A DNA stretch of 64,000 nucleotides from Phytohabitans maris. Lineage in GTDB: Bacteria > Actinomycetota > Actinomycetes > Mycobacteriales > Micromonosporaceae. This document shows positions 21,781 to 40,655 of the stretch, piece by piece. Location: assembly GCF_031085175.1 (NCBI RefSeq), contig NZ_JAVHUY010000029.1, positions 1 to 64,000 on the forward strand, written 5' to 3'. Position numbers and translations under genes: made by a program. How positions within the stretch are numbered: position 1 is the stretch's first letter; each line of letters opens with the position of its first letter. The notes under the pieces were generated by a model. That model saw only the letters and a program-made list of their open reading frames with translations. It was not told where the DNA came from and searched no databases.

Positions 21781-22779
21781 ATGAGGACCCACAAGGCCGG
21801 GCGGCGCTGGTCGCGGTTGGCAACGCGCCTGCTCGTGGTGACGATGCTGGCGCTGCCCGCGGCCGCCTTCGGCGCGGGTGGGGCGTCCGCCTTCGGCGGC
21901 GCCTTCTACCCGGCCCAGCGCCTGGGCAACCGCGGCGTCGACGTGCTGGCCATCGAGTACCTGCTCCAGCACCACGGCCACGACGTGCCCGCCGACGGCC
22001 AGTTCACGTCCTCTGTGGACACCGCGGTGCGGGCGTTCCAGTCGGCCCGGGGGCTCGGCGTCGACGGGATCGTCGGCCCGAGGACGTGGGCCGCGCTGGT
22101 GGTGACCATCGGCCGCGGTGCGAGCGGTCCGGCGGTGCGGGCCGTGCAGGAGCAGCTCAACGAGAAGCGAAACGCCGGCCTCGCGGTCAGCGGCACGTTC
22201 GACGACGCCACCCACGCGGCGGTGGTGGCGTTCCAGGGGCATGCCGCGATCGCCGCCGACGGCATCGTCGGCGCCGTCACCTGGACCAACCTGGCCTGGC
22301 ACTACGCGTACCCGGACATGTCCGCCGGCCTCTGCGACCAGGACCCGGACGGAAACGGCACCGCCAACTGGGCCACCGGCGCGGCGGTGGCGCAGCTCGA
22401 AGCGGCCGCCGCCAGCTTCGCCGGCACCGGCCAGGGCCAGGTGCCGCTGGGCGACGCGAGCAGGGAGCACGGCGGCGACATCCCCGGCCACTCCAGCCAC
22501 GAGGTCGGCCTCGACATCGACGTGTGGCCGATCCGCACCGACTCGGCGCAGTGCACGGCCGGCCGGATCACGTGGCGGTCGTCGACCTACGACCGGGCCG
22601 CCACCCGCCAGCTCGTCCAGGCGATCCGGAGCGCGGCGCCCGGCCACGTGCGGCTCGTCTTCTTCAACGACCCGACCCTGATCGCCGAGGGGCTCACCAC
22701 GGAGTACGCCGGCCACGACAACCACCTGCACATCCGTTACTGCGAGCGGGTCCATCCGAACAGCCTCTACACCTGCTGA
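21781..22779 (+). CDS. Secreted murein endopeptidase (MepA/M74-like) with two peptidoglycan-binding domains
   Basis: A 332-residue protein. A basic N-terminus and hydrophobic core (LVVTMLALPAAAFGAGGASA) form a Sec signal. Two PG_binding_1 modules follow, at about 45-108 (GNRGVDVLAIEYLLQHHG ... DGIVGPRTWAAL) and 112-170 (DGIVGAVTWTNL). The catalytic domain contains HGGDIPGHSSHEVGLDID (residues 230-247) and GHDNHLHIRY (311-320), the metal-ligand pattern of penicillin-insensitive murein endopeptidases, which cut D-Ala-mDAP cross-links. It therefore probably trims the wall outside the cell. The ATG at 21781 is favoured over upstream frame extension because it gives a proper signal peptide. It opens the plus-strand secretome island and is divergent from the small SARP. 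Confidence 0.85.
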   Translation: MRTHKAGRRWSRLATRLLVVTMLALPAAAFGAGGASAFGGAFYPAQRLGNRGVDVLAIEYLLQHHGHDVPADGQFTSSVDTAVRAFQSARGLGVDGIVGPRTWAALVVTIGRGASGPAVRAVQEQLNEKRNAGLAVSGTFDDATHAAVVAFQGHAAIAADGIVGAVTWTNLAWHYAYPDMSAGLCDQDPDGNGTANWATGAAVAQLEAAAASFAGTGQGQVPLGDASREHGGDIPGHSSHEVGLDIDVWPIRTDSAQCTAGRITWRSSTYDRAATRQLVQAIRSAAPGHVRLVFFNDPTLIAEGLTTEYAGHDNHLHIRYCERVHPNSLYTC

Positions 22780-22894
22780 GCGCGGAAGTGCGGAAGATGT
22801 GCGGCTGCCTGTTCATCCTGTTGCTGGCCGCGCGCCCCACCCGTACCCGGCCGGGCCGGGCGGTGGGGCGCGCACGTGGAGCGGAGGGATCGCG

Positions 22895-24709
22895 ATGACG
22901 CTTCGGTTCGGTGCCGCCGGTTGGCCGGTGGCTCTGTTGGCGGCACTCGTGGTCGGGTCCGCGCCGACCGCCGGTCCCGCGTCCGCGGGTGCGCCCCCGC
23001 GCCGGCCGGTGACCGCGCCGGCGGCGCCCGATCGGGCGGGCGTCACGGAGGCGGTGCGGGCGGCCGAGGCGGCGCGGCGGACCGGCGTACCGGTCGAGAT
23101 CGTGGGCGAGCGCACCGAGACCGCGCGGGTGTTCGCGAACCCGTCCGGTACCCGCACGCTCGAGCAGCACCTGCTGCCGGTGCGGGCCAAGCGCGGCGGC
23201 GAGTGGGTCCCGATCGACACCCGGTTGGTCCGGGACGCGGCCGGTGGCGTCGTGCCGGGCGCGACCCCGGTCGGGTTGCGGCTCTCCGGTGGTGGCTCCG
23301 GTCCGCTGGTGACCGCTGAGCGGGACGGTGCCGAGTTGGCGTTGTCCTGGCCGGCGCCGCTGCCCGCGCCGGTGCTCGACGGTGACGCGGCGACGTACCC
23401 GGAGGTGTTGCCGGGGGTGGATCTGCGGGTCCGGGTCAACGCGGTGGGCTTCTCGCAGTTCCTCGTCGTCAAGGACGCCGCCGCGGCGGCGAACCCGGCC
23501 CTGCGCCGCATCCGGTTCGGTACCAGCACGCGGAACCTGACGCTGCGGGCCGGGCCGGACGGCAGCAGCGCGGCCGTGGACGCCGCCGGCCGAGCGGTTT
23601 TCGCCGCCGGACCGCCGGTGATGTGGGACAGCACGCCCGAGCCGCCCGAGGCGGCCGGTGTCGCGGCGGCGGACACCCGCTCCGCTGAGGCGAGTCCGGC
23701 GCCGGAGCGGCGGCGGGCGACGGGCGTGGAGGTCAATCCCGGTGAGCTGGTGGTGATTCCGGACCAGAAGATGCTCTCCGCCCCGCAGACCCGGTACCCG
23801 GTCTACATCGACCCGTCGTACAGCGCGGCCCAGTACCGGTGGACGCTGGTCAACCACGACGACCCCGCCAAGTCGTACTGGACCGACGACTTCTACCGCG
23901 AGGACGCGCGGGTCGGCTCGGTGTACGGCAGCGGCGACGGCCCATGGCGGACGTTCTTCCAGATGAACGTGGCCCGGGTGGCCCGCGCGACGGTCGCCCG
24001 CGCCTGGTTCTCGATCTCGATGACCCACACCGCGGACTGCGCGGAGACGAGCGTGGAGCTGTGGCACACCCGGCTGATCGACCCCGGGACACCGGTGACG
24101 TGGAACAACAGCGCGGGCCACTGGCTCGGCGGCGCGGCCCTGGACACCCGCAAGGGCAAGGCCAACAAGTCGGCCTGCGGCCAGCCGCCGAAGCTCATGG
24201 AGTTCGGCCTCAGCCCCGACACGGTCACGCCGGTCGTGCGGGAGGCCGTGTCGGGAGCGGACGGGCCGCAGGAGGCGATCGGCTTCGGGCTGCGGATCCC
24301 CGCCGCGAACGAGGGGACGCAGCTCTACTGGAAGCGGTTCAAGCCGTCCACCGCGCTGCTCAACATCGAGTACAACACCGCGCCGGAGAGCCCGACGAGC
24401 GTCTCCACCGTGCCGCCGTCGCCATGCGGGACCGCGGCCGCGCCGACCCCGCTGAGCACCGCCACGCCGACCTTCTCCGGGGTGGGCTACGACCCGAACG
24501 GCGACAACGTCACCAACGAGTTGGAGATCCTGTCCGGTGAGACGGTGCTGGCCGGCCTCTCCTCGGGCACGGTCGGTTCGGGCAGTGTGGTGCGCTGGTC
24601 GCCGGTCCCGTCCGGGACGCTCCCGACCGATCAGCCGGGTGCGGTGTTCAGCTACCGGGCTCGCACCCGGGACGCGGGGCTGGCCGGCCCGTACGGTGAG
24701 CGGTGCTAG
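22895..24709 (+). CDS. Secreted DNRLRE-type protein, N-terminal half of a gene split by an amber codon
   Basis: A 604-residue frame from ATG 22895 (GGAGG upstream) to TAG 24707-24709. A Sec signal (WPVALLAALVVGSAPTAGPASA) precedes a domain found in front of RHS proteins of actinomycetes: ANPSGTRTLEQHL ... WVPIDTRL ... YPEVLPGVDLRVRV, then a DNRLRE-like segment (WRTFFQMNVARVARATVARAWF ... CAETSVELWHT). The frame continues without a shift beyond the TAG. Reading tgc-TAG-ttc-aca-gtg-gac gives C-stop-FTVD, where related proteins have CEFTVD. The two halves are therefore one gene with a GAG-to-TAG change, a readthrough site, or a sequence error. Alone this half would lack the FG-GAP and lectin modules. 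Confidence 0.8.
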   Translation: MTLRFGAAGWPVALLAALVVGSAPTAGPASAGAPPRRPVTAPAAPDRAGVTEAVRAAEAARRTGVPVEIVGERTETARVFANPSGTRTLEQHLLPVRAKRGGEWVPIDTRLVRDAAGGVVPGATPVGLRLSGGGSGPLVTAERDGAELALSWPAPLPAPVLDGDAATYPEVLPGVDLRVRVNAVGFSQFLVVKDAAAAANPALRRIRFGTSTRNLTLRAGPDGSSAAVDAAGRAVFAAGPPVMWDSTPEPPEAAGVAAADTRSAEASPAPERRRATGVEVNPGELVVIPDQKMLSAPQTRYPVYIDPSYSAAQYRWTLVNHDDPAKSYWTDDFYREDARVGSVYGSGDGPWRTFFQMNVARVARATVARAWFSISMTHTADCAETSVELWHTRLIDPGTPVTWNNSAGHWLGGAALDTRKGKANKSACGQPPKLMEFGLSPDTVTPVVREAVSGADGPQEAIGFGLRIPAANEGTQLYWKRFKPSTALLNIEYNTAPESPTSVSTVPPSPCGTAAAPTPLSTATPTFSGVGYDPNGDNVTNELEILSGETVLAGLSSGTVGSGSVVRWSPVPSGTLPTDQPGAVFSYRARTRDAGLAGPYGERC

Positions 24710-24715
24710 TTCACA

Positions 24716-26560
24716 GTGGACACCAGCCAGCCGGATCCGCCGGTGCTGACGTCGGCGGACTTTCCGGGTCCGAGCCCGGTGAAGTCGGTCGGCGAGGTCG
24801 GCACGGTCACCTTCGCCCCGGGTGGCGGGGAGAGCGACGTCGCCGGCTACCGGTACGGGTTCAGCCAGGACGTCACGACCATGTGGGTGGCCGCCGGCGC
24901 CGACGGGCGGGCCACCGTGCCGGTGACGCTGTGGCCGGAGTACGCGACCGACACCGGTGACGTGCGCCGGACGCTGTACGCGCGGGCGGTGGACCGGGCG
25001 GGCAACGCCAGTAGGCTCGGCCCGGGACGCGAGTTGGTCGCCCGGGGCCGCGCGGTCAGCGATCCGGCGGTCTCCGCGGACGTCAACGGGGATCGGCGGG
25101 CCGACGTGACCGCCCTGGTGGACCACGGGCATGGCCAGACGGCGGTGTGGAATCTGCTTTCCGCCCCGGGCGGCGTCCATCCGGGGTACGTCGCCTGGGA
25201 CACCGGCGTCGGCGGCGGGTCTCCGGCCGATCTGGTGCGGAGCGTGACCGGTGACTTCGACCGGAACGGCCGCACCGACGTGGCCATCTTCCGCGAGGAC
25301 GCGGACCGGATGGTGCGGCTGTTCCTGCTTCCCGCCGACGGAAACCGGTTCTCGGCGGTGAGCGAGCCGGTGTGGACCGGCGACATGTTCCGGCTCTCCC
25401 ACCTGAGGGTGGCCGCCGGGGACTTCGACGCGGACGGCGACGACGACATCGCCGCCCTTCAGGGCCTGGCCGGCGGCCAGCTCAGGCTCTGGGCGTTCCT
25501 GTCCACAAGGGACGGCTTCGCCGCTCCCGCGCTGAGCTGGGACAGCGGCGCCTCCGGTGCCGGCGTGACCGGGGCCAACCTGGTGGCGATGGACGTCGAC
25601 GCGGACGGCGACGACGACGTCGTGGACATGCACGACATGGGCAACGCCCAGACGCAGATGCGGATCCACCACGCCACCGCCGGCGTGTTCGGCGCTCCGG
25701 TGACGCGGTGGGACAGCGGGGCCGGTGGCTTCGACGCCCGGCGGGCCCGGTTCGCCGGTGGAGACCTCGACGGCGACGCCGAACGCCGCCACGAGGTGGT
25801 CGCGCTCTACGACGACGGCGGCGCCACCGCCCGGCTGGTGGTCTTCAAGGGGCGGGGGACGGTGTGGACCCCGACCATCTGGTGGAGCAGTGGCGCGGGC
25901 GGGTTCGACGCCACCCGCGGCACCCTCGCCGCCGGCGACTTCGACGCCGACGGCCGGACCGACGTCGCGTCGCTCTACGACACCGGCGCCGGCAAGCGCC
26001 GCCTCTACACCTTCGTCTCGTCCGGCACCGGGTTCGCCGACAAGCGCGCCGACTGGGAAGGGTACGTCAGCGAGGCCAAACCGGCCGTGCACGTCGACCC
26101 GAACCGCCGGTACCGGATACACCCCGTGCACAGCGGCAAGTGCTTCGACGTACCCGGCGGGAGCGCGGCGAACGACGCGATCCTGGACCAGTGGGACTGC
26201 GTCGCCACCGCCACCTGGGAGACGTTCCGCTTCGAACGGGTCGGCGGCTCACCCTACTACCTGATCCGGACCGCCGCCGACAAGTGCCTGGATCTCAAGC
26301 TGTACAGCCTCTTGGACAACGCGCAGACCCTCCAGTACGCGTGCGACGAAGCCGGCGCGGCAAAGCCCAACCAGCAGTTCCGCCTCGATCTGGTGGGCGG
26401 CGGCGGATACGAACCCGTGGTGCGGTTGCGGGTCGTACACAGTGGAAAGTGCCTCCACGTCAGCGGCGCGAGCCTCGCCAACGGAGCGCAGATCGTGCAG
26501 GCCCCGTGCGCCGCGGTACCGCCGGACGAGCAACGGTTCACGCTCCGCCTGGAGCCGTGA
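24716..26560 (+). CDS. FG-GAP repeat and ricin-type lectin protein, C-terminal half of the amber-split gene
   Basis: A 614-residue frame in phase with the preceding gene. A GTG at 24716 could serve as start but has no ribosome site and no signal peptide, so independent secretion is unlikely. Residues 1-110 are a fibronectin/Ig-like linker. About 110-455 carry repeated FG-GAP/VCBS blades with calcium-binding loops (DVNGDRRADV, DFDRNGRTDV, DFDADGDDDI, DVDADGDDDV, DFDADGRTDV). The last 150 residues form a ricin-type beta-trefoil lectin (HSGKCFDVPGG ... ADKCLDLKL ... HSGKCLHVSG). Such proteins are typical companions of secreted RHS proteins, probably for glycan attachment. The stop is 83 bp before the RHS start. 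Confidence 0.8.
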   Translation: MDTSQPDPPVLTSADFPGPSPVKSVGEVGTVTFAPGGGESDVAGYRYGFSQDVTTMWVAAGADGRATVPVTLWPEYATDTGDVRRTLYARAVDRAGNASRLGPGRELVARGRAVSDPAVSADVNGDRRADVTALVDHGHGQTAVWNLLSAPGGVHPGYVAWDTGVGGGSPADLVRSVTGDFDRNGRTDVAIFREDADRMVRLFLLPADGNRFSAVSEPVWTGDMFRLSHLRVAAGDFDADGDDDIAALQGLAGGQLRLWAFLSTRDGFAAPALSWDSGASGAGVTGANLVAMDVDADGDDDVVDMHDMGNAQTQMRIHHATAGVFGAPVTRWDSGAGGFDARRARFAGGDLDGDAERRHEVVALYDDGGATARLVVFKGRGTVWTPTIWWSSGAGGFDATRGTLAAGDFDADGRTDVASLYDTGAGKRRLYTFVSSGTGFADKRADWEGYVSEAKPAVHVDPNRRYRIHPVHSGKCFDVPGGSAANDAILDQWDCVATATWETFRFERVGGSPYYLIRTAADKCLDLKLYSLLDNAQTLQYACDEAGAAKPNQQFRLDLVGGGGYEPVVRLRVVHSGKCLHVSGASLANGAQIVQAPCAAVPPDEQRFTLRLEP

Positions 26561-26643
26561 CCACGGATACCCGCGCCGGCAGCCTCCTGGGCGTCTCCTG
26601 CGTTGCCGGAACGACATGACCACGGACGACCTGGGGAGGACTC

Positions 26644-29600
26644 GTGGAACACGCGGCGCGTCGCCAGCTGGGACTGGCGTTGGCAACGATCATGGCAGCG
26701 TCGATGGTGTGCGGCATCCCGGAGCGGGCGGCGGCCGCGCCGGCGGAGAACCTCTCGCTCGCCAAGGAGCGATCGACGCCCGTCCGGCCGGTGTCGGCAC
26801 CGCAAGCCAAACCGGGCCTCGACGAGGAGCTGGCGCTGCGCGGCACCCCGGCCGTCTCCTGGCCCGCGCCGGGCAAGGCGGAGGTCGCGCTGAAGACGGC
26901 CGGCGCGAGCGCCGCCGGCACCGCGCGGGTCCGGGCGGGCGCGCTGCCGGTGTCGGTCGGCGCAGCCAAGAGCGCCGCCGCCCGGTCGGCAACGCCCGCC
27001 CAGGTACGGGTCGAGATGCTGCCACGGCGCGCGGACGGCTTGCTGTTGCGGGTGAACCGCGCGGACGGCGTGGCCGCCGCCGGCCAGATCGACCTCGAGG
27101 TCGACTACTCCTCCTTCCGCGACGCCTACGGTGGGGACTGGGCGACCCGGCTGCGGTTGATGGCCCTACCCGAGTGTGCGCTGTCCACACCGGACCTTCC
27201 GGAGTGCGCCGGTAGTCCGATCGCCACCCGCAACGACGGTTCGGGCCGGCTGAGCGGGGACGTCCCGGTGCGGGCCGAGAGCGGATCCGGCTTGTTCGCG
27301 GTCATCGCCGCCGCCTCCTCCGGCGCGGGCGACTTCAAGGCGACCGCGCTCTCGCCCTCCTCCACGTGGTCGGTCGGCACCTCCTCCGGCGACTTCGGTT
27401 GGCAGTATCCGATGGAGGTGGTGCCGGGCCTCAGCGGGCCGCAGCCGACCATGGAGCTCGGTTACTCCAGTGGCGGCGTCGACGGCCGGACCTCGTCGAC
27501 GAACAACCAGCCGTCGTGGGTCGGGGAGGGGTTCTCGCTCGACCCGGGAGGCTACATCGAGCGGCGGTACAAGTCGTGCGGCGAGGACACCGGCGGCGGC
27601 ACCAACAGCGGCCGCAAGACCGGCGACCTGTGCTGGGCGACCGACGCCGGACGCAGCCGAAGCTACGACAACGCGGTCATGTCGCTCAACGGGCGCGGCG
27701 GTGAGCTGATCCGTGACGACGCCACCGGGCAGTGGCGGACGCGCGTCGACGACGGCACCAAAGTGGAGCTGCTGACCGGCGCGGGCAACGGCGACGACAA
27801 CGGGGAATACTGGCGGATCACCACCCCGGACGGCACCCAGTACCACTTCGGAAAGCACAAGCTGACCGGATGGGCCACCGGTAACGAGCTCACCAACTCG
27901 GTCTGGACGGTTCCGGTGTTCGGCAACCACTCCGGCGAGCCGTGCTACAAGTCCACATTCGACACCGCGTACTGCGACCAGGCGTGGCGGTGGAACCTCG
28001 ACTACGTCGTGGACCGCAACGGCAACACCATGAGCCTGTTCTACGGGACCGAGAAGAACAACTACGCCCGCAACATCACCGCCACCAAGGTTTCGAGCTA
28101 CGTCCGGGGCGGCTGGCTCAAGCGGGTCGACTACGGGCAGCGCGACGGCGAGGTCTACTCGAAGCCGGCGGTCGCCCGCGTGCTGTTCACCGAGGCGGAC
28201 CGGTGCATTCCCGGCACCACCTGCGCCACCTCGTCGCCGGCGAACTGGCCGGACGTGCCGTGGGACCAGGCATGCACGAGCACCACCAACTGCAACAACA
28301 AGTTCAACCCCACCTTCTGGACGCAGAAGCGGCTGGCCACCGTGACCACCCAGGTCTGGGGCGGTACCGCGTTCCGCAACGTCGACTCGTGGACGTTGAC
28401 GCACTCGTACCCCAGCCCCGGCGACGGCACCCGGGCCGGGATGTGGCTGGCCTCGATCCAGCACAAGGGTCTCGTCGGCGGCGAGGCGAGCCTGCCGCCG
28501 ATCACCTTCGACGGGATCCAGCTGAACAACCGGGTGGACGGAGTCGACGGCATCCCGCCGATGAACTGGTTCCGCGTCAACAAGATCAATCTCGACTCGG
28601 GTGGCGAGATCACGGTCGCCTACTCACCCAAGGACTGCGCCGTACCCGGAGACGTGCCGGTGCCCGACTCGAACACCCGGCGCTGCCACCCCTCCCGATG
28701 GACGCCGGAAGGGCAGACCGGCGATCGCCTCGACTGGTTCAACAAGTACGTGGTCACCGAGGTGACCGAGGTCGATCGCACCACCGGCCTGCCGCCGGTG
28801 GTGACGCGGATCGAGTACCCCAACACGCCGGCCTGGCGCTTCGACGAGGCCGACGGCATGGTGCCGGACAACAAGAAGAGCTGGTCGCAGTGGCGGGGAT
28901 ACGACCGGATCCGGGTCCAGAAGGGTCCGGTCGGTGGCCTGCGGTCGGTGACCGAGTCGCTGTACTTCCGCGGCATGGACGGTGACCGGACCGCGTCCGG
29001 CGGGAAGAAGGAGGTCTGGATCACCGACTCGACCGGCACCCGGCTGCGTGACTCCGACCAGTTCGCCAACACCGCGCGGGAGAACACCAAGTACACCGCC
29101 GGCGGCGCGGTGCAGGAGAGGGAGATCACCGACCCCTGGCTGTCGGCGGCCACCGCCACCCGGACCCGGAGCTGGGGTACGACCCAGGCGTTCCGGGTCG
29201 AGGAGGGCAAGGTCCGGCAGAGCCAGGCCAAGGGTGCGGGAGCCTGGCAGAACACGGGCTCGGAGAACGTCTACGACGCCCAGGGCACGGTGCTGCGCTC
29301 CAACGACCTCAACGACGTGTCCAACCCGGACGACGACACCTGCACCCGCTACTGGTACACGAAGAACGAGTCACTGTGGATCATCAACCTGCCGTACCGC
29401 GTGGAGACGGTCGCGGTGAACTGTGACACCACCCCCGTCTACCCGGACGACCTCATCTCCGACGTCCGGCACTACTACGACGGCAGCACCACCCTGGGCG
29501 CGGCACCGGTGCGCGGCGAGATCACCCGTACCGAGGAGCTGTCGGGCTGGGCGAACGGGGCACCGACGTACGTGACCACGAAGCGGGCAAGCTACGACGT

Positions 29601-32600: not shown

Positions 32601-32922
32601 CATGAGTATCGCCCTCAAGGACCGGAAGTTCCGGACCGCGGGCTGGGAGGCGGCCGGTCTGGTGACGTTCGGCCTCGGCCGGGCGGCGAAGGTCGGGATG
32701 GACTCGGCCCGCGCCGCCCAGACGGCGGCCCGTGCGATGCCGCGGGACGCGGCGGGTCGCGTCGACATGCTCACCAGGGCCAACGCCACCATCGCGAACG
32801 GCGAGAGGACGGAGGCGAGTATCGGCGGTACCGACGGCGCACTGTTCGTCAAGGACGCGGTCTCCTTCGCCGGCGAGATGGTGGGTGGGGAGAAGGGGGA
32901 GAAGTTCTTCGACATGGGTTAG
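26644..32922 (+). CDS. Secreted RHS-repeat protein (polymorphic-toxin-type) with unrecognised C-terminal tip
   Basis: A 2092-residue protein starting at GTG 26644 behind GGGGAGGA. The N-terminus is a Sec signal (LGLALATIMAASMVCG ... AAAA). An N-terminal beta-rich region precedes a long series of RHS/YD repeats (for example YDPLGRLTKV, YDLRGLRIRSE, YDILGRQTG, YDAAGNTATRR). The RHS-associated core runs to about residue 1805 (LIHLGAREYDPTLGRFISVDP ... YTYANNNPVTYADPNGD). In this family the RHS shell encloses a variable C-terminal toxin. Here the final 287 residues are Lys/Trp-rich and helical (KWVTKIPFLGSLVKWGWK), then a hydrophobic stretch (about 1957-1985), then an Ala-rich tail. I see no nuclease, deaminase or ADP-ribosyltransferase motif. 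No immunity gene is adjacent. Confidence 0.9.
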   Translation: MEHAARRQLGLALATIMAASMVCGIPERAAAAPAENLSLAKERSTPVRPVSAPQAKPGLDEELALRGTPAVSWPAPGKAEVALKTAGASAAGTARVRAGALPVSVGAAKSAAARSATPAQVRVEMLPRRADGLLLRVNRADGVAAAGQIDLEVDYSSFRDAYGGDWATRLRLMALPECALSTPDLPECAGSPIATRNDGSGRLSGDVPVRAESGSGLFAVIAAASSGAGDFKATALSPSSTWSVGTSSGDFGWQYPMEVVPGLSGPQPTMELGYSSGGVDGRTSSTNNQPSWVGEGFSLDPGGYIERRYKSCGEDTGGGTNSGRKTGDLCWATDAGRSRSYDNAVMSLNGRGGELIRDDATGQWRTRVDDGTKVELLTGAGNGDDNGEYWRITTPDGTQYHFGKHKLTGWATGNELTNSVWTVPVFGNHSGEPCYKSTFDTAYCDQAWRWNLDYVVDRNGNTMSLFYGTEKNNYARNITATKVSSYVRGGWLKRVDYGQRDGEVYSKPAVARVLFTEADRCIPGTTCATSSPANWPDVPWDQACTSTTNCNNKFNPTFWTQKRLATVTTQVWGGTAFRNVDSWTLTHSYPSPGDGTRAGMWLASIQHKGLVGGEASLPPITFDGIQLNNRVDGVDGIPPMNWFRVNKINLDSGGEITVAYSPKDCAVPGDVPVPDSNTRRCHPSRWTPEGQTGDRLDWFNKYVVTEVTEVDRTTGLPPVVTRIEYPNTPAWRFDEADGMVPDNKKSWSQWRGYDRIRVQKGPVGGLRSVTESLYFRGMDGDRTASGGKKEVWITDSTGTRLRDSDQFANTARENTKYTAGGAVQEREITDPWLSAATATRTRSWGTTQAFRVEEGKVRQSQAKGAGAWQNTGSENVYDAQGTVLRSNDLNDVSNPDDDTCTRYWYTKNESLWIINLPYRVETVAVNCDTTPVYPDDLISDVRHYYDGSTTLGAAPVRGEITRTEELSGWANGAPTYVTTKRASYDVFGRETETYDVRGARTTTAYTPAGGGPVTQIDVTNALGHRNRTIYEPAWAEETATLDADDRRTELRYDPLGRLTKVWLPGRSTSQTPNAEYSYLVRTTGANAVTSRTLQPNGDYETEYELYDGLMRPRQTQEPAPGGGRILNDKVYDSRGLVVKENGPYYNDAPPGADVVVADDQTMPAQIRTVYDDQERPTNVMLMVDGVEKWRTTHTYDTNRHDVDPPDGDTPTTRITDVEGNLVELRSYHGASPTGTYDSTKYTYTNRGQLATVTDAAGNLWRYGYDLRGLRIRSEEPDRGGTDFTFTDAGDVATARDARGATIAYAYDILGRQTGTFDGSPSGARRTSRTYDTLADGTPARGSQISATRYVGTSAYVSETTGFDAAGRPTGSRITIPASEGALAGTYEFTQTYKVDGSSATMNVPAAGGLPAEQLATGYDNLGQATTFSGASGYVTATEYTQFGELRQMTLSSGGPAARLGYEYEYGTHRMARAVISRDTAPQRVADLAYGYDPAGNITSIADRAEGAAETQCFRYDHLRRLTEAWTPTSGECGAAPSAGALGGPAPYWHSWTFDKTGNRLSETRTAPGGARTTSAYTYPAAGQDRPHAVSRVTTTGPDGTAQVEEFGYDAAGNTATRRKGTGGQTLTWDAEGKVSSITKGGATTSFLYDAGGNRLIRRDAGGTTLYLAETELRLASDGTVTGTRYYSFAGRTIAVRTSADKALHWLGLDHHGTPEIAIEATGQDVKRRRHTPYGEVRGVAGAWPGEKSFVGGTADPTGLIHLGAREYDPTLGRFISVDPVIDHQEPQQINSYTYANNNPVTYADPNGDRWVITTRHVKKMTVRKVTEKQPYWVKFWVAVTTWEPVKWVTKIPFLGSLVKWGWKQVTTLVERSKQLWRTIEKTIREWDTQVERIKTWVKDEVKKAWKKASPHINRIKKRAESIAKGAGKMARSAGRGLAKAAKWAGNQMKPGGAGWKLLKLGLAIGAFTPFCSAICAVGAAAMTVVDMSIALKDRKFRTAGWEAAGLVTFGLGRAAKVGMDSARAAQTAARAMPRDAAGRVDMLTRANATIANGERTEASIGGTDGALFVKDAVSFAGEMVGGEKGEKFFDMG

Positions 32923-32950
32923 CACCCCGCCTCCAGGTGCCGCGACGTGA

Positions 32951-32993
32951 TCAGGGCGTTCCCGGGTCGTTCCGCGACCCAGGGACGCCCTGA
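32951..32993 (+). terminator. Strong hairpin after the RHS gene
   Basis: A 19-bp stem with two mismatches, from TCAGGGCGT... (32951) to ...ACGCCCTGA (32993), with a short TTCCG loop, 29 bp after the RHS stop. No T run. Probable terminator of the RHS transcript. Confidence 0.7.
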
Positions 32994-33037
32994 CCGCGAA
33001 CGGGCAGGTGGCGCCGAGCGGACACCGCGAATGTGCG

Positions 33038-33043
33038 GATAAT
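33038..33043 (+). promoter_or_regulatory. Possible -10 element in an AT-richer patch before the M23 peptidase gene
   Basis: GATAAT lies in 33030-33100, a stretch clearly less GC-rich than its surroundings, 84 bp before the ATG at 33127 and after the RHS terminator. No convincing -35 is seen. An independent promoter for the M23-PL8 gene pair is likely, but this exact box is tentative. Confidence 0.3.
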
Positions 33044-33126
33044 GTGCCCCGCATGTACGAAGCTTATTGCCGTAACGAGCTACAGTACTGACGCTAATTT
33101 TCGCGCGATCCTGGGGAGGAGCGTCA

Positions 33127-34143
33127 ATGCCCGTTGCCCGCATGACCGCAGGAGGTGCCTGCCTGCGTACCGCGCTCGTGTTGCTGGCGGCACTCGCCAT
33201 CAGCACATCCGCGTTCGCCGTCGACACGCCGGCGTCCGCCGGCCCGGCAGCCGCCGCCGCGCCGGCCTGGCCGCTGGTCCGGGAGGGGCAGCAAGGCGCA
33301 CAGGTACGCACGGTGCAGCACCTGCTGCGCCAGCGCGGCGAGACGATCGTCGCCGACGGCATCTTCCTCGGGCTGACCAAGGCCGCGGTCCAGCGGTTCC
33401 AGTCGGCCAACGGCCTCAGCGCCGACGGCATCGTCGGACCGCTCACCTGGCCGGTGCTGTTGGTCCCGCTGGACACCGGCGCCACCGGCGAGGCGGTGCG
33501 GGCGTTGCAGGTCCAGCTCAACCGGTACGCCGCCGGGCTGACCGTGGACGGTGTGCTCGCCGGACCCACGGCGGAGGCGGTGAGCGCGTTCAAGACCGAG
33601 CGGGGCCTCGGCAGCGGCTCCACAGTGGACGTCGCGGTCTGGCAGTGGCTGGTCGGCGGGGCGCCGTCCGTCGGCGGGTACGCGCTGCCGCTGTCGCGCG
33701 ACGTGCTGCCGCGCGGCGAGTACGACGATCCGCACCACGACTACCCGGCGATCGACCTGCCGGTGCCGACCGGGACGGCCGCGTACGCCAGCGCCGCCGG
33801 CACGGTCGCCGCGGTGAACGACAGCAGCTGCGGGATCGGTGTGGTGATCACCGACGCGAACGGCGTCCGGCACATCTACTGCCACTTCTCGCAGCGGGTC
33901 GCCGCGGGCGGCTCCACAGTGGTCGCCGGCCAGCTCGTCGGCTACACCGGAAACACCGGCAACTCCACCGGTCCGCACCTGCACTTCGGCATCAGGACCG
34001 GCACCACCAACCGGTGCCCGCAGCCGTTCCTGCTGGCCCTCTACGACGGTGTCGCGCCGCCCGCCCCGGCCACGTTGCCGACCACGGGCTGCTACTACGC
34101 GACCCCGAGCCCCGCCCGACCGCTGCTCGACCACCTCCACTAA
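33127..34143 (+). CDS. Secreted M23 (LytM-type) metallopeptidase with peptidoglycan-binding domains
   Basis: A 338-residue protein starting at ATG 33127 behind GGGGAGGAG. The signal peptide ends AISTSAFA. Two PG_binding_1 modules follow (about 53-112, QGAQVRTVQHLLRQRG ... DGIVGPLTWPVL; and 118-176). A C-terminal M23 domain has zinc ligands H203/H204 and D210 (PHHDYPAID), the H249-x3-H253 pair (HIYCH) and GPHLHFGI (H284, H286). This family cleaves peptide cross-links of peptidoglycan; together with the MepA-like enzyme it gives the island two different wall endopeptidases. The spacing to the next gene is 16 bp, so it is probably co-transcribed with the PL8-family gene. Confidence 0.9.
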   Translation: MPVARMTAGGACLRTALVLLAALAISTSAFAVDTPASAGPAAAAAPAWPLVREGQQGAQVRTVQHLLRQRGETIVADGIFLGLTKAAVQRFQSANGLSADGIVGPLTWPVLLVPLDTGATGEAVRALQVQLNRYAAGLTVDGVLAGPTAEAVSAFKTERGLGSGSTVDVAVWQWLVGGAPSVGGYALPLSRDVLPRGEYDDPHHDYPAIDLPVPTGTAAYASAAGTVAAVNDSSCGIGVVITDANGVRHIYCHFSQRVAAGGSTVVAGQLVGYTGNTGNSTGPHLHFGIRTGTTNRCPQPFLLALYDGVAPPAPATLPTTGCYYATPSPARPLLDHLH

Positions 34144-34159
34144 GGACGGACGTACGCCG

Positions 34160-36247
34160 ATGAGGAGCCTCGACCGTCGCACGTTGCTCATCGGCGGGTT
34201 GGCGGCCGGTGGTGCCGCCCTCGGCGCCGGCCTCCCGGACAGGCCGGCGCGCGCCGGGGGCCGGACCGACCTCGCCGCCGCGGCGGACGACTTCGCCCGG
34301 ATGCGCGCCCTGTGGCGGGCGCTGCACGTCACCTCCGGGTACGACCCGGCCGACCCGGGCATCGCGCCGGTGCTCACGACCATCACCGGCGAGGCGCAGC
34401 GGTGGTGGTCGGCGATGGCGAAGTCTTCCAGCCGCACGTACCTCTGGTCGGACGCCCAACTCGGCGTCCACCAGTCCTTCGCGATCCGGGACTCCTTCGC
34501 GCGGCTGCGGGCCATGGCCCTGGCTTGGGCCACCCCCGGCTCCGGTCTGGCCGGCCGGGACGACCTGCGCGCCGACACGGTGGCCGGCCTCGACTGGGTC
34601 GTCGGCCACTGGTGCAACGAGAACCGCGACCCCGTCGGCAACTGGTGCTTCTACCGCGACGGCTCGTTCATCCAGCACCACTACTACCCCTACGCCGGCG
34701 CGTACGGGGCGTCCATTCTCGACGCGCTCGCCCCGGTGCTGCGCACCGTCGCCGGCACGCCGTGGCAGGTCGACGCCCCGATCGTCGTCGAGTGGCTGCG
34801 CGAGGCGTTCGATCCGCTGATCTGGCGCGGCGGCTTCATGGACATGACCCGCGGGCGGACCATCGCCCGCCCGGACGAGCAGAGCCCGGTCACCGGCCAC
34901 GCCACCCCGGCGGCGGCGCTCGGCCTGCTCGGCGCCGCGCCCGCCGCCGAGACGGCCTGGCTCCGGTCGCTGCTCAAGGAGTGGATGCTCGCGGACGGCT
35001 ACCGCGCCGACCCGACACCGGCCCGCAACGTGCCGCTCCGCCTCGCGGCCCGCGTGCTGCTGGACGACGCGACCGTCACCCGCCGCGGCCCGCTGGCGGT
35101 GAGCAAGGTGTACCACCACCAGGACCGGGTGGTGCACCGGCGGGCCGACTGGGCGCTGGCCATCGCGATGCACTCCAGCCGTATCGCGAACTTCGAGTAC
35201 CTCAACGGCGAGAACACCCGCGGCTGGATCACCGCCGACGGCGCCACGTACCTCTACACGGCGGCCGAGCAGTACGGCGACGCGTACTGGCCCACCGTGA
35301 ACTCGGCCCGGCTCGCCGGCACCACGATCGACGTCCGCTCCCGTGCCGCCGGCGAGGGCGACGGCTACCGCAGCGGGGTCAACTGGGCCGGTGGCGCCAC
35401 CCTCGACGGGCGCTACACCGCCGCCGGGATGAACCTCGACGCGCAGGGGTCGTCGCTGACCGCCAAGAAGTCGTGGTTCTGCTTCGACCGCGAGGTGGTC
35501 GCCCTCGGCGCCCGCATCAACGCCACCGACGGGCGGCGGGTCGAGACGACCGTCGACAACCGCCAGATCTCCGCGTCCGGAGCGGAGAAGCTTCTGGTGA
35601 ACGGCGTGGAACGGGTGGCACAGGCCGGGTGGGTGGAGGAGCCGCAGACCCGCTGGGTCCACATCGGAGGGACCGGCGGCTACGTCTTCCCGACCCCTAC
35701 GCTGGTCGACTTCCGGCGGGAGGCGCGCACCGGCCGCTGGACCGACGTCAACACGCACCCGACGTACGCGGGCTACACCGGCGCGCTCACCCGCAACTAC
35801 CTCGCCGCGTGGATCGACCACGGTACGGACCCGGCCAACGCCGGCTACGCGTACGTCATCCTGCCGACCGCCACGCCGGAGCAGACGGCGGCGTACGCGG
35901 CGCGACCGGACGCGGTGGTGGTCGCCAACACGGCCAGCGTCCAGGCGGCCCGGTCGTCGAGCGCGCGGGTCCTCGCGGCGAACTTCTGGGCCGCCGCCAG
36001 CGCCTCCGTGGTCACCAGCCTGGACCCGGGCTCGGTCGTGCTGATGGAGGGCGACGGTGAGATCGCCGTCGCGGTCGCCGACCCGACCCACCAGGCCAGC
36101 CGGATCCGGCTGACCGTCGACCTCGGCGCCACCCGCGTCGTCGCCGCCGACCCGGGCATCACCGTGACCGCGCTTGCCCCGCTCACGTTCACGGTCTCGG
36201 TGGCGGGCGCGGCGGGCGCGACCAGGACGCTTCGGGCCGCCCGGTGA
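34160..36247 (+). CDS. Polysaccharide lyase family 8 (hyaluronate/chondroitin/xanthan lyase-like), probably internally shortened
   Basis: A 695-residue Tat-exported protein (MRSLDRRTLLIGGLAAGGAALG). The N-terminal alpha/alpha-toroid and C-terminal beta-sandwich domains of PL8 are recognisable: YRDGSFIQHHYYPYAGAYG with the family His and, nine residues on, Tyr; RIANFEYLNGENTRGW; YLYTAAEQYGDAYWPT; and AAWIDHG near the end. From memory of PL8 alignments, a segment of about 100 residues is normally found between the GNWWDWEIG-type motif (here DPVGNW, about residue 160) and the YRDGSF motif. That segment carries the catalytic Asn (GANRVD-type). Here the two motifs abut (GNWCFYRDGSF). The frame is otherwise intact. 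The enzyme may be inactive or altered. The start ATG 34160 has AGGACGGA upstream. Confidence 0.8.
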   Translation: MRSLDRRTLLIGGLAAGGAALGAGLPDRPARAGGRTDLAAAADDFARMRALWRALHVTSGYDPADPGIAPVLTTITGEAQRWWSAMAKSSSRTYLWSDAQLGVHQSFAIRDSFARLRAMALAWATPGSGLAGRDDLRADTVAGLDWVVGHWCNENRDPVGNWCFYRDGSFIQHHYYPYAGAYGASILDALAPVLRTVAGTPWQVDAPIVVEWLREAFDPLIWRGGFMDMTRGRTIARPDEQSPVTGHATPAAALGLLGAAPAAETAWLRSLLKEWMLADGYRADPTPARNVPLRLAARVLLDDATVTRRGPLAVSKVYHHQDRVVHRRADWALAIAMHSSRIANFEYLNGENTRGWITADGATYLYTAAEQYGDAYWPTVNSARLAGTTIDVRSRAAGEGDGYRSGVNWAGGATLDGRYTAAGMNLDAQGSSLTAKKSWFCFDREVVALGARINATDGRRVETTVDNRQISASGAEKLLVNGVERVAQAGWVEEPQTRWVHIGGTGGYVFPTPTLVDFRREARTGRWTDVNTHPTYAGYTGALTRNYLAAWIDHGTDPANAGYAYVILPTATPEQTAAYAARPDAVVVANTASVQAARSSSARVLAANFWAAASASVVTSLDPGSVVLMEGDGEIAVAVADPTHQASRIRLTVDLGATRVVAADPGITVTALAPLTFTVSVAGAAGATRTLRAAR

Positions 36248-36301
36248 GGCGGACCCGATCGATGGCACAGGTTTCGAGGAGTCGAGTCTCAGGAGGGTTC
36301 G

Positions 36302-37273
36302 ATGGGTTCGCGTTCGATGGTCCTGGCAGCCGCGCTCGCCGCGCTGGTCGGCGCCGGGCTGACGGGGTCCGCCTCGGCGGCCGAGCCGCCCGCGGCTCAG
36401 GCGGCGCCGGCGGGGATGCACCGCTTCGTGGTGTCGATCGGGAAGGTGGACGCCGGTTCGCGGCAGAACTGGAACCGGCTCGGCATGTACACGCTGACCG
36501 ACAGCGGTGAGGTGTCGGAGGTGCACTGGCACTGGACCCAGCGGGAACGGGTCAGCCGGAGCTACACCGGTGTCCCGGCGGCCAACTGCGGGGCGCGCAA
36601 CTGCAACGTGCAGACCGGCAACGGCTTCCAGAGCGGGAGCGCCCCGGACCGTCTACAGGGGACGTACACGGTGAGCGGCTCGGTGCTGCGGATCACCTGG
36701 AGCACCGGGATATGGGAGGAGTGGACGGTCAGCGAGCCGGTGCCGGGCAAGCTGGCCAAGCTCGCCTTCCGGGGCAACAACTTCGGCGCCACCCACGGCT
36801 TCGGGTACGGCAGCGAGGCGGCCTTCACCACGCGCGCGTCGATGGCGCAGATCGCCGCGGCCAACCACGACGCGTTCGTCCACACGTACTACCTGTGGAA
36901 GACCGACTCCAACCAGGTCGGGTACGTCGACCAGGGCACCGGAAGCCCGTTCTGGTACCGGGACTTCACCGTCTGCACCGGCAGCCGCTGCGCGGCCGGG
37001 CGTACCGACAAGGCGCAGTACTACATCTCCCGGCCGAACACGTCCGCCACGGACCGGCGGGACACGCTCTGGCACTGGTTCACCGCGAACGCGGACGGCC
37101 GCGGCGAGTTCTGCTACACCGGCAACTCCCACGTGAAGCCGATGCTGGAGATCGTCGACAGCGACGGGGTGCTGCACGGCTGGGTCGGCGTGGAGGCGTC
37201 CATCAACCAGACCGTGCCGGCCCAGGGCGCCAACGCCGACGACATCGGCGTCTTCGCCATCGCCGATGTCTGA
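36302..37273 (+). CDS. Secreted protein of unknown function
   Basis: A 323-residue protein from ATG 36302 behind GGAGGG. A clear Sec signal peptide (MGSRSMVLAAALAALVGAGLTGSASA). The mature part is rich in aromatic residues and beta-type sequence, with four cysteines in a CGARNC and CTGSRC pattern that suggests two local disulfides. Segments such as SEVHWHWTQRERVSRSYTG, GNNFGATHGFGYGSEAAF and YYLWKTDSNQVGYVDQG have no motif I recognise. It lies 54 bp after the PL8-family gene and 10 bp before the NAGPA-like gene, so it is probably part of the same secreted set; its function is unknown. Confidence 0.75.
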   Translation: MGSRSMVLAAALAALVGAGLTGSASAAEPPAAQAAPAGMHRFVVSIGKVDAGSRQNWNRLGMYTLTDSGEVSEVHWHWTQRERVSRSYTGVPAANCGARNCNVQTGNGFQSGSAPDRLQGTYTVSGSVLRITWSTGIWEEWTVSEPVPGKLAKLAFRGNNFGATHGFGYGSEAAFTTRASMAQIAAANHDAFVHTYYLWKTDSNQVGYVDQGTGSPFWYRDFTVCTGSRCAAGRTDKAQYYISRPNTSATDRRDTLWHWFTANADGRGEFCYTGNSHVKPMLEIVDSDGVLHGWVGVEASINQTVPAQGANADDIGVFAIADV

Positions 37274-37283
37274 GGGCAAGGAG

Positions 37284-38936
37284 ATGCGACGGCCACTGGC
37301 TCTGGCACTGCTGCCGGCGCTCCTCACCGCCGCCGCGGTCGGGATCGGCCCGGGCGCCGGGTACGCCGATCCGGTGCGGCCGCCGGTCGCGGTCAGCCCG
37401 GCGTACGGCGGCGCGCGGGTCGAGGCCGCGGCGGCGGACGTCGGGACGTACGCGGCGACCCGGCTCGCGCCCGGCCTGACGCTGAGCGACTTCAGCACGA
37501 CCGGCCCCAACAAGGGCGCCATCCTCACCGCCGACCTGACCGAGCCGACGCTGAAACCGAAGTACCTCAACCCGGGTACCGTCGGTGCGACCGCGACGCT
37601 GACCACGCAGGCCAACCGGGCCGGCGCGGTGGCGGCGGTCAACGGCGACTTCTTCGACATCGGCGCGACCGGGGCGCCGCGCGGCGTCGGGATCGACGGC
37701 GGCGGCCTGCTGCACGGCCCCGCCTCGGGCTGGAACAACGCGGCCGCGCTCTACGCGGCCGGCGCCGGCACCCGGGGCGGGCTGGCCAGCGTCTTCCTGG
37801 ACGCGACGGTGACGCTGCCGGGCGGGGCGGTGCTGACCGCCAGCAACCTCAACTCGCCGAACATCGCCGCGAACGGCATCGGCATCTACAACCCGCTCTG
37901 GGGCGACGAGCCGCGCAGCCAGGTGCTCGACGGCGCGACCCGGTCCCGCGAGATCGAGATCAGCGGCGGCGCGGTGAGCAAGGTGAGCACCAGCCCGGGC
38001 GGCAAGGTGGCCGCCGGCACGGTGGTCGTGCTCGGCGTGGGTACCGGCGCGGACGCCCTCGCCGGGCTGCGGGTCGGCGACGTGGCGACCGTCGACTACC
38101 GGCCGCGCGGCGGCGACGGCGCGCAGGTCGCCATCGGCGGAAACCTCGTGCTGGTACGGGATGGCATGGTCACCACGACGTCGCATCCGCGCAATCCGCG
38201 CACGGCGGTCGGGTTCTCCGCGGACGGGCTGCGGATGTGGCTGGTCGTCGTCGACGGCAGGTCCGGCACCAGCGTCGGGATGACCTACGTCGAGCTGGCC
38301 AACTTCATGAAGTCACTCGGCGCCGACGACGCGCTCAACCTGGACGGCGGCGGATCGTCCACATTGGTCGCCCGGATGCCCGGCGCCACCGGCGTCTCGG
38401 TGCGCAACACCCCGTCCGACGGCGCGCAGCGCCCGGTGCCCAACGGCATCGGCTTCGTCTCCACCGCCCAACCGGCCGCCTGCGTCTCGGCCAACCTGAA
38501 CCTCACCGGCTACCCGGCGCTCTCCGCCGGCGCGACGGGGCCGGCCGTGACGGCCGCGCAGTGCCTGCTGATGGACGCCGGCTTCGGCACCGGCGCGGCT
38601 GGCCCCACCGGCACGTTCGACACCGGCACCGCCGCGGCCACCACCCGGTTCCAGCAGGACCGCGGGCTCACCGCCACCGGTACCGTCGACGCGCGCACAT
38701 GGACCGCGCTGCTCGCCGCCGGCGACACCCCGATCCTGCGCAACGGGTCGACCGGGTATCCCGTCACGCGCCTGCAACGGGCCCTGACCGCCGCGCTCGG
38801 GCGGAGCGTCGGCATCGACGGCGCGTTCGGTCCCGTCACCGAGCGCGCGGTCCGCGACTACCAGACCGCCCGCGGGCTCGGCGTGGACGGTGTCGTCGGC
38901 ACCCAGACCTGGGGCGCGCTCCAGGCCGGCAGGTAA
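37284..38936 (+). CDS. Secreted phosphodiester glycosidase (NAGPA) family protein with two peptidoglycan-binding domains
   Basis: A 550-residue protein. ATG 37284 gives a signal peptide (RRPLALALLPALLTAAAVGIGPGAGYA); the in-frame ATG at 37266 has no ribosome site. The central domain (about 100-400) matches the phosphodiester glycosidase family (PF09992): VNGDFFDIG, NPRTAVGFS, LVVVDGRS and the hallmark ALNLDGGGSSTL. Family members remove N-acetylglucosamine from phosphodiester-linked sugars; bacterial ones probably act on wall polymers. Two PG_binding_1 modules (about 415-475 and 485-550, ending DGVVGTQTWGALQAGR) anchor it to the wall. The last 235 bp are closely paralogous to the end of the next gene. 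Confidence 0.85.
   Translation: MRRPLALALLPALLTAAAVGIGPGAGYADPVRPPVAVSPAYGGARVEAAAADVGTYAATRLAPGLTLSDFSTTGPNKGAILTADLTEPTLKPKYLNPGTVGATATLTTQANRAGAVAAVNGDFFDIGATGAPRGVGIDGGGLLHGPASGWNNAAALYAAGAGTRGGLASVFLDATVTLPGGAVLTASNLNSPNIAANGIGIYNPLWGDEPRSQVLDGATRSREIEISGGAVSKVSTSPGGKVAAGTVVVLGVGTGADALAGLRVGDVATVDYRPRGGDGAQVAIGGNLVLVRDGMVTTTSHPRNPRTAVGFSADGLRMWLVVVDGRSGTSVGMTYVELANFMKSLGADDALNLDGGGSSTLVARMPGATGVSVRNTPSDGAQRPVPNGIGFVSTAQPAACVSANLNLTGYPALSAGATGPAVTAAQCLLMDAGFGTGAAGPTGTFDTGTAAATTRFQQDRGLTATGTVDARTWTALLAAGDTPILRNGSTGYPVTRLQRALTAALGRSVGIDGAFGPVTERAVRDYQTARGLGVDGVVGTQTWGALQAGR
38701..38935 (+). repeat. Paralogous peptidoglycan-binding module, copy 1
   Basis: Encodes WTALLAAGDTP ... DGVVGTQTWGALQAGR, the last module of the NAGPA-like protein. 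It is strongly similar at DNA level to 40420-40655 at the end of the next gene, with identical opening (GGACCGCGCTGCTCGCCGCC) and closing (GGCCGGCAGGT) sequences. Confidence 0.8.
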
Positions 38937-38957
38937 CGAGAACCAGAAAGGTCACTT

Positions 38958-40655
38958 GTGGACAGTACAGTCGTCGCGGTCGCCGCGCTGGCGAGCACGC
39001 TCGCCGCCGGCCTCGCCCCCGCACCCGTGGCCGCCACCGCCCAGGTGGTGTCGTACCACGGATACCGTGTCACCGTCCCCGCCAGCTGGCGCGTGGTGGA
39101 CCTGGACCGCACCCCGTCGGCGTGCGTCCGGTTCGACTCGCCCACCGTCTACCTCGGACATCCGGGCGACCAGTCGACCTGCCCGGCCGGTCTGGTCGGG
39201 CGCGGCGCCGGGCTCGTCGTCGAACCCATCGACGCCACGCTGGCCGGACGGGTGGGCGCCGACGCGCGGACCACCGCCCCGGGCACCGCCGCCGCGCCGC
39301 CGACCACGCCGTCCCGGGACGGCACGATCCAGGTCGCGGTCGAGAGCGCCGGGGTACTGGTCACCGCGGTGCACGGCGGGGCGGACGAGGTGGCCGTCCG
39401 GCAGGTGCTGGAGTCGGCCGGCCTCACCGCCGGCGCCGTCCCGGCCCGGCTGCCGGCATCCGCCCAACCGCCACGCACCGCTGCGGCGAGCCCGCAGCCG
39501 GGCACCTTCCTGGGCCGGGGCTTCGACGCCTGCGCCGCGCCGTCACAGGCCACGATGGACGCTTGGCTGACCTCGTCCCCGTACCGGGCGGTCGGTGTCT
39601 ACATCAGCGGCGGCCTGCGCGCCTGCGCCCAGCCCAACCTCACCGCGTCCTGGGTGGACACCCAGACCGCCAAGGGCTGGCACCTGATCCCGCTCGATGT
39701 CGGCCGGCAGGCGCCCTGCTCCAGCTACAGCTCCAAGATTTCCAGCACCCCGGCCACCGCGAAGGCGCAGGGCGGCGACGCCGCCGCGACGTCGGTGACC
39801 GCGGCGCAGGCGCTGGGAATCCCGGCCGGCAGCGCCATCTACGCCGACATCGAGGGGTACGGCAGCGGAGCCTCGTGCACGGCGGCCGTGCTGTCGTACC
39901 TGTCCGGCTGGACCGAGGCGCTGCACGCCCGCGGCTACCTGTCCGGGCTGTACTCCAGCGCCTCCTCCGGCATCCGGGACGCCGCCAACGCCTACACCAA
40001 CACCGGGTACACCCGCGTCGACCACATCTGGTTCGCCTGGTGGAACGACGCCGTCAACACCGACAGCGGCCCGTACGCGCCCGCCTCGTACTGGGGCGAC
40101 CACCAGCGGATCCACCAGTACCAGGGCAACGTCAGCGAGACCTGGGGCGGCAGGTCGGTCAACATCGACCGCAACTACCTCGACGTGGCCGCCGGCCCGG
40201 TCGAGCCACCGCCGCCCTGCGCCGGCACCAATGTGGACTTCGCCGCCTATCCACCGCTCGGCGAGGGAGCCACGGGTGCCCCGGTGACCGCCGCCCAGTG
40301 CCTGCTGGACCCCGCCGGCACCCCCTCCGGCACCTTCGACGCCGCCACTATCGCGGCGACCCGCGCCTTCCAGCAGGCCCACAACCTGCCCGTCACCGGA
40401 CAGGTCGAGGCGCACACCTGGACCGCGCTGCTCGCCGCCGGCGACACACCCACCCTCCGCTCCGGCTCCACCGGCCCGGCGGTACGCCGCCTCCAGCGGG
40501 CACTGACCGCTGCCCTGTCCCGCACCGTCGCCGTCGACGGCGTCTTCGGAAGCCAGACCGACCAGGCGGTACGCGACTACCAGACCTCCCGCGCGCTCGC
40601 CTCGGACGGGGTCGTGGGCGGGCAGACCTGGGGCGCCCTGCAGGCCGGCAGGTGA
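38958..40655 (+). CDS. Secreted DUF1906 glycoside-hydrolase-like protein with two peptidoglycan-binding domains
   Basis: A 565-residue protein from GTG 38958, with AGAAAGG upstream. A short signal region (AALASTLAAGLAPAPVAATA) precedes an unassigned N-terminal domain of about 130 residues (VSYHGYRVTVPASWRVVDL). A DUF1906 (Rv2525c-like) domain follows at about 175-400, with GRGFDACAAPSQATMDAW, AVGVYISGG, IYADIEGY, GLYSSASSG and IHQYQGN. Its TIM-barrel fold and acidic residues resemble GH25-type lysozymes, so wall glycan cleavage is plausible but unproven. Two C-terminal PG_binding_1 modules are close paralogues of those in the preceding gene, 21 bp upstream, so the two are probably co-transcribed and share a domain by duplication. 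Confidence 0.85.
   Translation: MDSTVVAVAALASTLAAGLAPAPVAATAQVVSYHGYRVTVPASWRVVDLDRTPSACVRFDSPTVYLGHPGDQSTCPAGLVGRGAGLVVEPIDATLAGRVGADARTTAPGTAAAPPTTPSRDGTIQVAVESAGVLVTAVHGGADEVAVRQVLESAGLTAGAVPARLPASAQPPRTAAASPQPGTFLGRGFDACAAPSQATMDAWLTSSPYRAVGVYISGGLRACAQPNLTASWVDTQTAKGWHLIPLDVGRQAPCSSYSSKISSTPATAKAQGGDAAATSVTAAQALGIPAGSAIYADIEGYGSGASCTAAVLSYLSGWTEALHARGYLSGLYSSASSGIRDAANAYTNTGYTRVDHIWFAWWNDAVNTDSGPYAPASYWGDHQRIHQYQGNVSETWGGRSVNIDRNYLDVAAGPVEPPPPCAGTNVDFAAYPPLGEGATGAPVTAAQCLLDPAGTPSGTFDAATIAATRAFQQAHNLPVTGQVEAHTWTALLAAGDTPTLRSGSTGPAVRRLQRALTAALSRTVAVDGVFGSQTDQAVRDYQTSRALASDGVVGGQTWGALQAGR
40420..40655 (+). repeat. Paralogous peptidoglycan-binding module, copy 2
   Basis: Second copy of the module at 38701-38935, at the end of the DUF1906 gene. 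The preceding module (CLNLTGYPALSAG-like, here CAGTNVDFAAYPPLGEG) is also related. The copies differ mainly in the middle, so they are an old tandem duplication or under gene conversion at the ends. Confidence 0.8.

Follow-up and report, generated by a model that had tools for sequence, protein, structure and literature searches.

Several described systems are close to the locus analysed here. In the WapA-type Rhs contact toxins found in Gram-positive bacteria, a giant RHS protein exported by the Sec route goes with a partner or domain that binds the wall or the surface, and their retention at the peptidoglycan wall has been suggested (PMC12704120). Almost all of the teneurin-like RHS genes considered in a second source are followed by a downstream gene proposed to provide immunity (PMC13018210). 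Operons of Actinomycetota that combine PGBD, Rv2525c and TelC domains and include VanY have been interpreted as conflict systems; they have an Rv2525c TIM barrel joined to PG_binding domains and lack an immunity gene, and NAGPA and wall peptidases belong to the wider theme (PMC12419801). Here we describe a locus of Phytohabitans maris, within the first 64,000 nucleotides of contig NZ_JAVHUY010000029.1 (hereafter the window), where positions 21781 to 40655 hold an island of genes for secreted enzymes with peptidoglycan-binding modules, together with a lectin-type protein and a very large RHS protein. The island is real, non-random and a variant of these known themes, and we put at somewhat better than even the prospect that it is a mosaic in which a mobile RHS cassette has joined a set of wall-tagged lytic and glycan-cutting enzymes.

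Comparison with the described systems revealed both shared and distinct features. Unlike the WapA-type proteins, the island RHS protein has no recognised C-terminal toxin, is paired with a lectin-type protein encoded by its own gene and has several wall enzymes as neighbours; no candidate immunity gene lies in the 205 bp downstream, a difference also from the teneurin-like RHS genes. The island shares with the TelC operons an Rv2525c-like barrel that carries PG_binding modules, and relative to them it has M74/MepA and M23 peptidases, not VanY or a 3TM/Ig partner, and adds a PL8 lyase and the RHS protein; TelC had no Pfam match in the DUF1906 protein or in its first 201 amino acids, no dedicated TelC profile having been run. 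Plasmid pHAU01 of Herpetosiphon aurantiacus also encodes consecutive secreted proteins with the double module (Haur_5192-5194), one of them a 64% MepA relative, whereas the plasmid cluster lacks PL8, NAGPA, DUF1906 and RHS. The closest solved relatives of the PL8 protein are the xanthan lyases 1j0m and 6f2p, from which it differs in lacking 86 residues. The presence of one module on several unlike enzymes at one locus further resembles a cellulosome-like array. No published account of the combination was found among open-licence PMC papers, in agreement with an earlier note on this DNA that did not recognise it as a described system.

The host assembly comprises 9.87 Mb in 95 contigs with a GC content of about 73%. 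Nine plus-strand open frames with third-position GC of the coding type span the island, and these represent eight genes, since frames 22799-24709 and 24716-26560 are a single gene split by a TAG codon. As the earlier note had proposed, the genes are consecutive, on one strand and of secreted type, with signal-peptide-like starts in seven of the eight as judged by a simple hydrophobicity rule from the called starts; one correction is that the PL8 gene is not intact, with 86 residues missing. The DUF1906 gene fails the rule because, at its called start, no basic residue precedes the hydrophobic stretch. Pfam confirmed PG_binding_1 on four different catalytic domains, doubled in each of the M74/MepA, M23, NAGPA and Rv2525c/DUF1906 proteins. 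Genome-wide, 16 PG_binding_1 matches fall into 10 genes, and the island holds eight matches in four of these; only a fraction of 6.5e-6 of 2,000,000 uniform placements put four of the 10 genes inside 18.7 kb. The grouping of tagged enzymes, which the earlier note describes as bracketing the RHS/lectin pair and PL8, is thus non-random. Solved relatives of the M23 protein include TagE, zoocin A, LytM and lysostaphin. For the DUF1906 protein, a predicted structure (predicted local distance difference test, pLDDT, 71.5) matched 1sfs (E 8.9e-5) and Rv2525c (4pmr, E 4.6e-3) in Foldseek, which gives modest support for an Rv2525c-like fold. Rv2525c has reportedly been suggested to be a peptidoglycan hydrolase.

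Gathering of tagged genes was also observed well beyond this strain. Relatives of the MepA-PG_binding protein are rare (7 of 249 genomes of the order at E 1e-40, its own included) and those of the DUF1906 protein less so (23 of 249, likewise), and of the 12 MepA loci studied elsewhere, nine have a further PG_binding gene no more than 10 kb away. Such a neighbour accompanies seven of 10 DUF1906 loci with a PG_binding tail and none of nine without one (Fisher p 0.003; 0.019 if the four Amycolatopsis are treated as one). In Amycolatopsis (four named species and G262, possibly a second assembly of one of them), MepA, M23 and DUF1906 genes are adjacent, with further PG_binding-only and GH75-PG_binding genes. 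M23 stands beside DUF1906 in Goodfellowiella and G326, DUF1906 beside MepA in Streptomyces meridianus, NAGPA beside DUF1906 in Virgisporangium aurantiacum, a 54% NAGPA beside MepA in G031, and MepA beside an M15-PG_binding gene in G011 and G207. On pHAU01 (L138 7694-10807) three PG_binding hydrolases are consecutive, with Amidase_2 and the MepA relative among them. Left out of the counts were L003, identical to the V. aurantiacum locus L022, and L028, identical to a contig of G250; loci L024, L034, L036, G031 and G207 end at a contig end on one side. In Amycolatopsis regifaucium (L077 2654-9339) the cluster goes on with FG-GAP, PhoD, PG_binding-only and GH75 chitosanase-PG_binding genes.

The tails themselves have been exchanged. 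The NAGPA catalytic domain is 78-84% identical to those of the 14 closest family loci, 13 of which carry a Golvesin_C tail; a PG_binding tail was found only in the remaining one, V. aurantiacum, and in the window protein. DUF1906 domains likewise come with PG_binding, Golvesin_C or neither of the two. A given catalytic domain can thus exchange its wall-binding tail for another. When 38 PG_binding pairs were placed in a tree, in which many forks remained open, the C-terminal pairs of NAGPA and DUF1906 from the window and V. aurantiacum formed one clade (92/91) with a PG_binding protein of G080, a genome of another genus, and the N-terminal pairs of MepA and M23 fell outside it. These data suggest that NAGPA acquired its tail from a local PG_binding lineage, although the direction is inferred. 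The G080 locus is tied to the island because its PG_binding protein shares this C-terminal tail clade.

The lectin and RHS genes behave as a cassette with sharp borders (22788-32916), the left one nine bases past the MepA stop and the right one at the stop of the RHS gene. Similarity to G080 DNA (85.4% over 22788-26599 and 87.3% over 26634-32916) covers the pair plus about 107 bp ahead of it, and neither MepA nor M23. The G080 pair has its orientation reversed with respect to PL8 and the order differs, with RHS converging on PL8; it adjoins that PL8 gene (65-66%), a gene for the 222-aa (amino acid) PG_binding protein and two SARP genes, and no MepA or M23 was found in the 60 kb fetched around RHS. 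Synonymous divergence (dS) between the window and G080 was 0.24 for RHS, 0.32-0.41 for the lectin gene, 0.45 for alaS, 0.61 for PL8 and 0.72 for SARP. Because the RHS value lies below those of alaS, PL8 and SARP, these data suggest that the cassette was recently exchanged, with alaS as the single housekeeping control. G080 carries two divergent alaS genes (L127 and L129), 83% and 45% identical to the window-genome copy. The lectin gene is interrupted by an in-frame TAG at 24707-24709; its G080 homologue is a single unbroken frame of 1231 aa, with 81% and 87% identity to the two window halves. Three further RHS genes in the genome each lie beside a lectin-like partner (29-36%) and have unrelated C-termini. 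A plasmid DNA search returned only 1% pieces with the RHS gene and nothing with its C-terminus.

A secretion signal and an RHS core are both present in the RHS protein (Pfam/NCBIfam and the hydrophobicity rule). Its C-terminal 286 aa are cationic, with 52 K/R against 25 D/E, and partly hydrophobic, mainly near 1957-1992. No recognised toxin domain was found there, a weak Senescence match (E 0.0075) falling below the cut-off; a toxin of an unrecognised family may be present. The 205 bp to the M23 gene hold only frames of 19-51 codons and a hairpin, and the G080 RHS gene also lacks a downstream immunity gene. Identity to G080 is 70% over the C-terminus and 85% over residues 1-1800, indicating, from one close relative, that the C-terminus evolves faster and has not been replaced. 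Across 330 family genomes a full-length match to the C-terminus at 70% occurs only in G080; G093 matches at 41%, and four further genomes have weak partial matches. The hairpin region (32920-33030) folds at -65.1 kcal/mol (z -3.86; none of 200 shuffles as good) and is probably a transcript end separating RHS from the downstream enzymes; the G080 RHS stop is also followed by a hairpin (z -4.12).

We propose that the island is a strain-specific secretion mosaic of two kinds of unit. One would consist of secreted enzymes held on murein by their paired PG_binding_1 modules, which both peptidases carry at the N-terminus and both glycan-type enzymes at the C-terminus; genes of this kind gather in many actinobacteria and on the Herpetosiphon plasmid, and the module can replace a Golvesin_C tail. 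The other would be the mobile cassette of lectin-type and RHS proteins. The tagged enzymes may form a wall-held kit that cuts competitors' walls and capsules or acts at the producer's surface. The RHS protein may have been acquired on its own as a surface or contact protein, sharing the niche of the enzymes without being cargo that needs the peptidases. Because their relatives suggest that the two units travel separately, a cutting kit is favoured over a door-opener for RHS.

Several observations weigh against this mosaic. PG_binding-tailed NAGPA is known from two genomes, and the tail-tree clade lies under the 95/80 mark. G080 joins PL8, a PG_binding protein of the same clade, SARP and RHS, and RHS may consequently be less independent. 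The sequence also leaves undecided whether the producer's own wall or that of a rival is the target. In addition, because PL8 and the lectin gene are both damaged in this copy, the island may be partly in decay, or the assembly may be at fault at these points. The 86 PL8 residues are absent at one place relative to both closest relatives, the G080 and G026 homologues; the gap falls where the solved xanthan lyases also fail to align, and the missing segment carries what we take to be the expected catalytic Asn. The TAG codon and the PL8 gap may each be a genuine lesion or a fault of an assembly in 95 contigs.

A bolder reading, which we hold only tentatively, is that the double PG_binding_1 module is a portable wall-display tag, comparable to a dockerin with murein as the scaffold. 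Actinobacteria would then use strain-specific islands of unlike tagged enzymes, and swapped tails, to build a displayed multi-enzyme coat, in which the RHS/lectin cassette would be a further exchangeable part.

Somewhat less probable is remodelling of the producer's own wall, with the tagged enzymes acting in sporangium opening or spore separation and RHS and lectin serving as surface adhesins. Modules of the spore-lytic type (SleB and SleC are among the fold matches) are consistent with such a role, and the family, Micromonosporaceae, includes Virgisporangium, a sporangium former. However, MepA is too patchy within the order for a developmental core, relatives occur on a Chloroflexota plasmid, and the island genes are absent at the site of the flanking ECF/FtsX_ECD pair in three same-genus genomes.

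We regard as improbable an accidental juxtaposition, within a rearranging accessory region, of RHS and enzymes with no functional link. The sharp cassette borders would fit such an origin, as would the right-flank DNA, which is dispersed across different places in same-genus genomes; on the other hand, the SARP, PL8, same-clade PG_binding protein and RHS cassette shared with G080 exceed what chance neighbours would provide.

The earlier note had itself proposed that two endopeptidases and the glycan enzymes open the producer's wall for release or delivery of the very large RHS protein. A common strand, tight spacing, the position of MepA and M23 on either side of RHS and the recurrence of PL8, a PG_binding protein and SARP beside RHS in G080 are in keeping with this proposal, but the synteny test that the note itself had set did not support it, and we consider it unlikely. 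A tblastn search with the window RHS core at E 1e-15, a threshold that could miss very divergent RHS proteins, found no match around 12 MepA and seven M23 loci elsewhere, covering 10-37 kb on most sides but, for two loci near contig ends, only 0.2-2 kb in one direction. In G262 a lectin-like 1700-aa frame (25% identity) lies about 12.5 kb from MepA, and the next 20 kb upstream contain no RHS. Conversely, RHS in G080 stands without either peptidase, the genome's other three RHS genes have no PG_binding gene in the surrounding 19-40 kb that were fetched, and the hairpin lies between RHS and the downstream enzymes. Among 62 RHS cores in seven genomes, three lie within 10 kb of a PG_binding gene, one of them, in G002, only 27% identical to the window RHS; as 1.5 would be expected, there is no general link between RHS and PG_binding genes.

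That the island is what is left of a phage's lysis or tail module, conceivable in that PG_binding and peptidase domains are frequent in endolysins, is highly improbable and was rejected for lack of full-length viral relatives: seven of the eight genes have signal peptides, viral contigs gave no MepA-PG_binding relative and a weak NAGPA match of 70 residues, 280 phage records match part of the MepA-PG_binding protein with none at >=80% coverage among the matches listed (best 10), and no phage structural genes were found in the part of the window genes that was scanned.

Table 1. Features of the island and its left border, in window positions.
Feature	Position	Strand	Basis or remark
SARP-type regulator, 310 aa	20733..21665	-	NCBIfam AfsR/SARP, BTAD domain; divergent from island
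Inverted repeat GTGGACAC-N10-GTGTCCAC, candidate operator	21710..21735		Gap between SARP and MepA genes
M74/MepA-type endopeptidase, secreted, two N-terminal PG_binding_1	21781..22779	+	Pfam; ATG start 21781
Lectin-type RHS partner (FG-GAP, ricin B), split	22895..26560	+	Pfam; start set by G080 homologue
RHS protein, 2092 aa, Sec-type signal	26644..32922	+	Pfam/NCBIfam
Strong hairpin, 5 bases past RHS stop	32928..33016	+	Folding energy vs shuffles
M23 endopeptidase, secreted, two N-terminal PG_binding_1	33127..34143	+	Pfam
PL8 lyase, Tat-like signal	34160..36247	+	Pfam; 86 residues missing after residue 163
Secreted protein, no known family	36302..37273	+	No Pfam, NCBIfam or PDB match
NAGPA-type phosphodiester glycosidase, two C-terminal PG_binding_1	37266..38936	+	Pfam
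Rv2525c/DUF1906 glycoside-hydrolase-like protein, two C-terminal PG_binding_1	38958..40655	+	Pfam; Foldseek

The protein of no known family was predicted with a pLDDT of 35, and its gene had no match in five other same-genus genomes. Two of nine homologues outside the window lie beside an island-type gene (PL8 in G026 and DUF1906-PG_binding in Streptomyces sp. MP131-18), and the other seven, in Nonomuraea and six class-level genomes, lack such a neighbour; a link to the enzymes on this basis is weak and was set aside.

The nearest flanking genes, encoding a SARP-type regulator on the left and an ECF sigma factor on the right, are both on the minus strand. The SARP gene is a candidate local switch that may control the island; its product shares 69% identity across 276 aa with the N-terminal portion of a SARP of 1015 aa at the G080 RHS/PL8 locus. 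The pattern of the candidate operator, chosen after sight, has its sole window match there at up to two mismatches (0.05 expected), and no match occurred in the other loci fetched by then, save the window's own copy, L041. Rfam and tRNA scans found nothing, a sigma-70 promoter scan gave no hits and terminator matches were at shuffle level. Within 15 kb on the minus strand (6884-21665) lie four genes for regulators that contain BTAD domains, NB-ARC-TPR domains or both. The ECF sigma gene on the right forms a pair with an FtsX_ECD gene (40733-41862); this pair converges on the island and is kept in G003. Homologues of the ECF gene (80-87%) occur in the same-genus genomes G001, G002 and G003, and of FtsX_ECD in G003, with no other window gene in the 40 kb around each ECF gene; because these homologues stand without the island, the pair was rejected as its regulators and is not part of it. 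Elsewhere in the window are genes for a PGA_cap protein of the capsule-synthesis type (4538-5752), two luciferase-like monooxygenases side by side (48097-50375) and a secreted Sde182-like nucleoside-hydrolase/cellulose-binding protein (50923-52440).

In sum, an RHS protein with neither a recognised toxin domain nor an immunity gene makes a testable case, and it may be no toxin at all. What makes the island interesting is the idea of a portable wall tag: if tag exchange is true, wall-binding modules would be interchangeable addresses recombined onto enzymes, and such islands would constitute a naturally occurring collection of lytic and capsule-cutting enzymes displayed on the wall.

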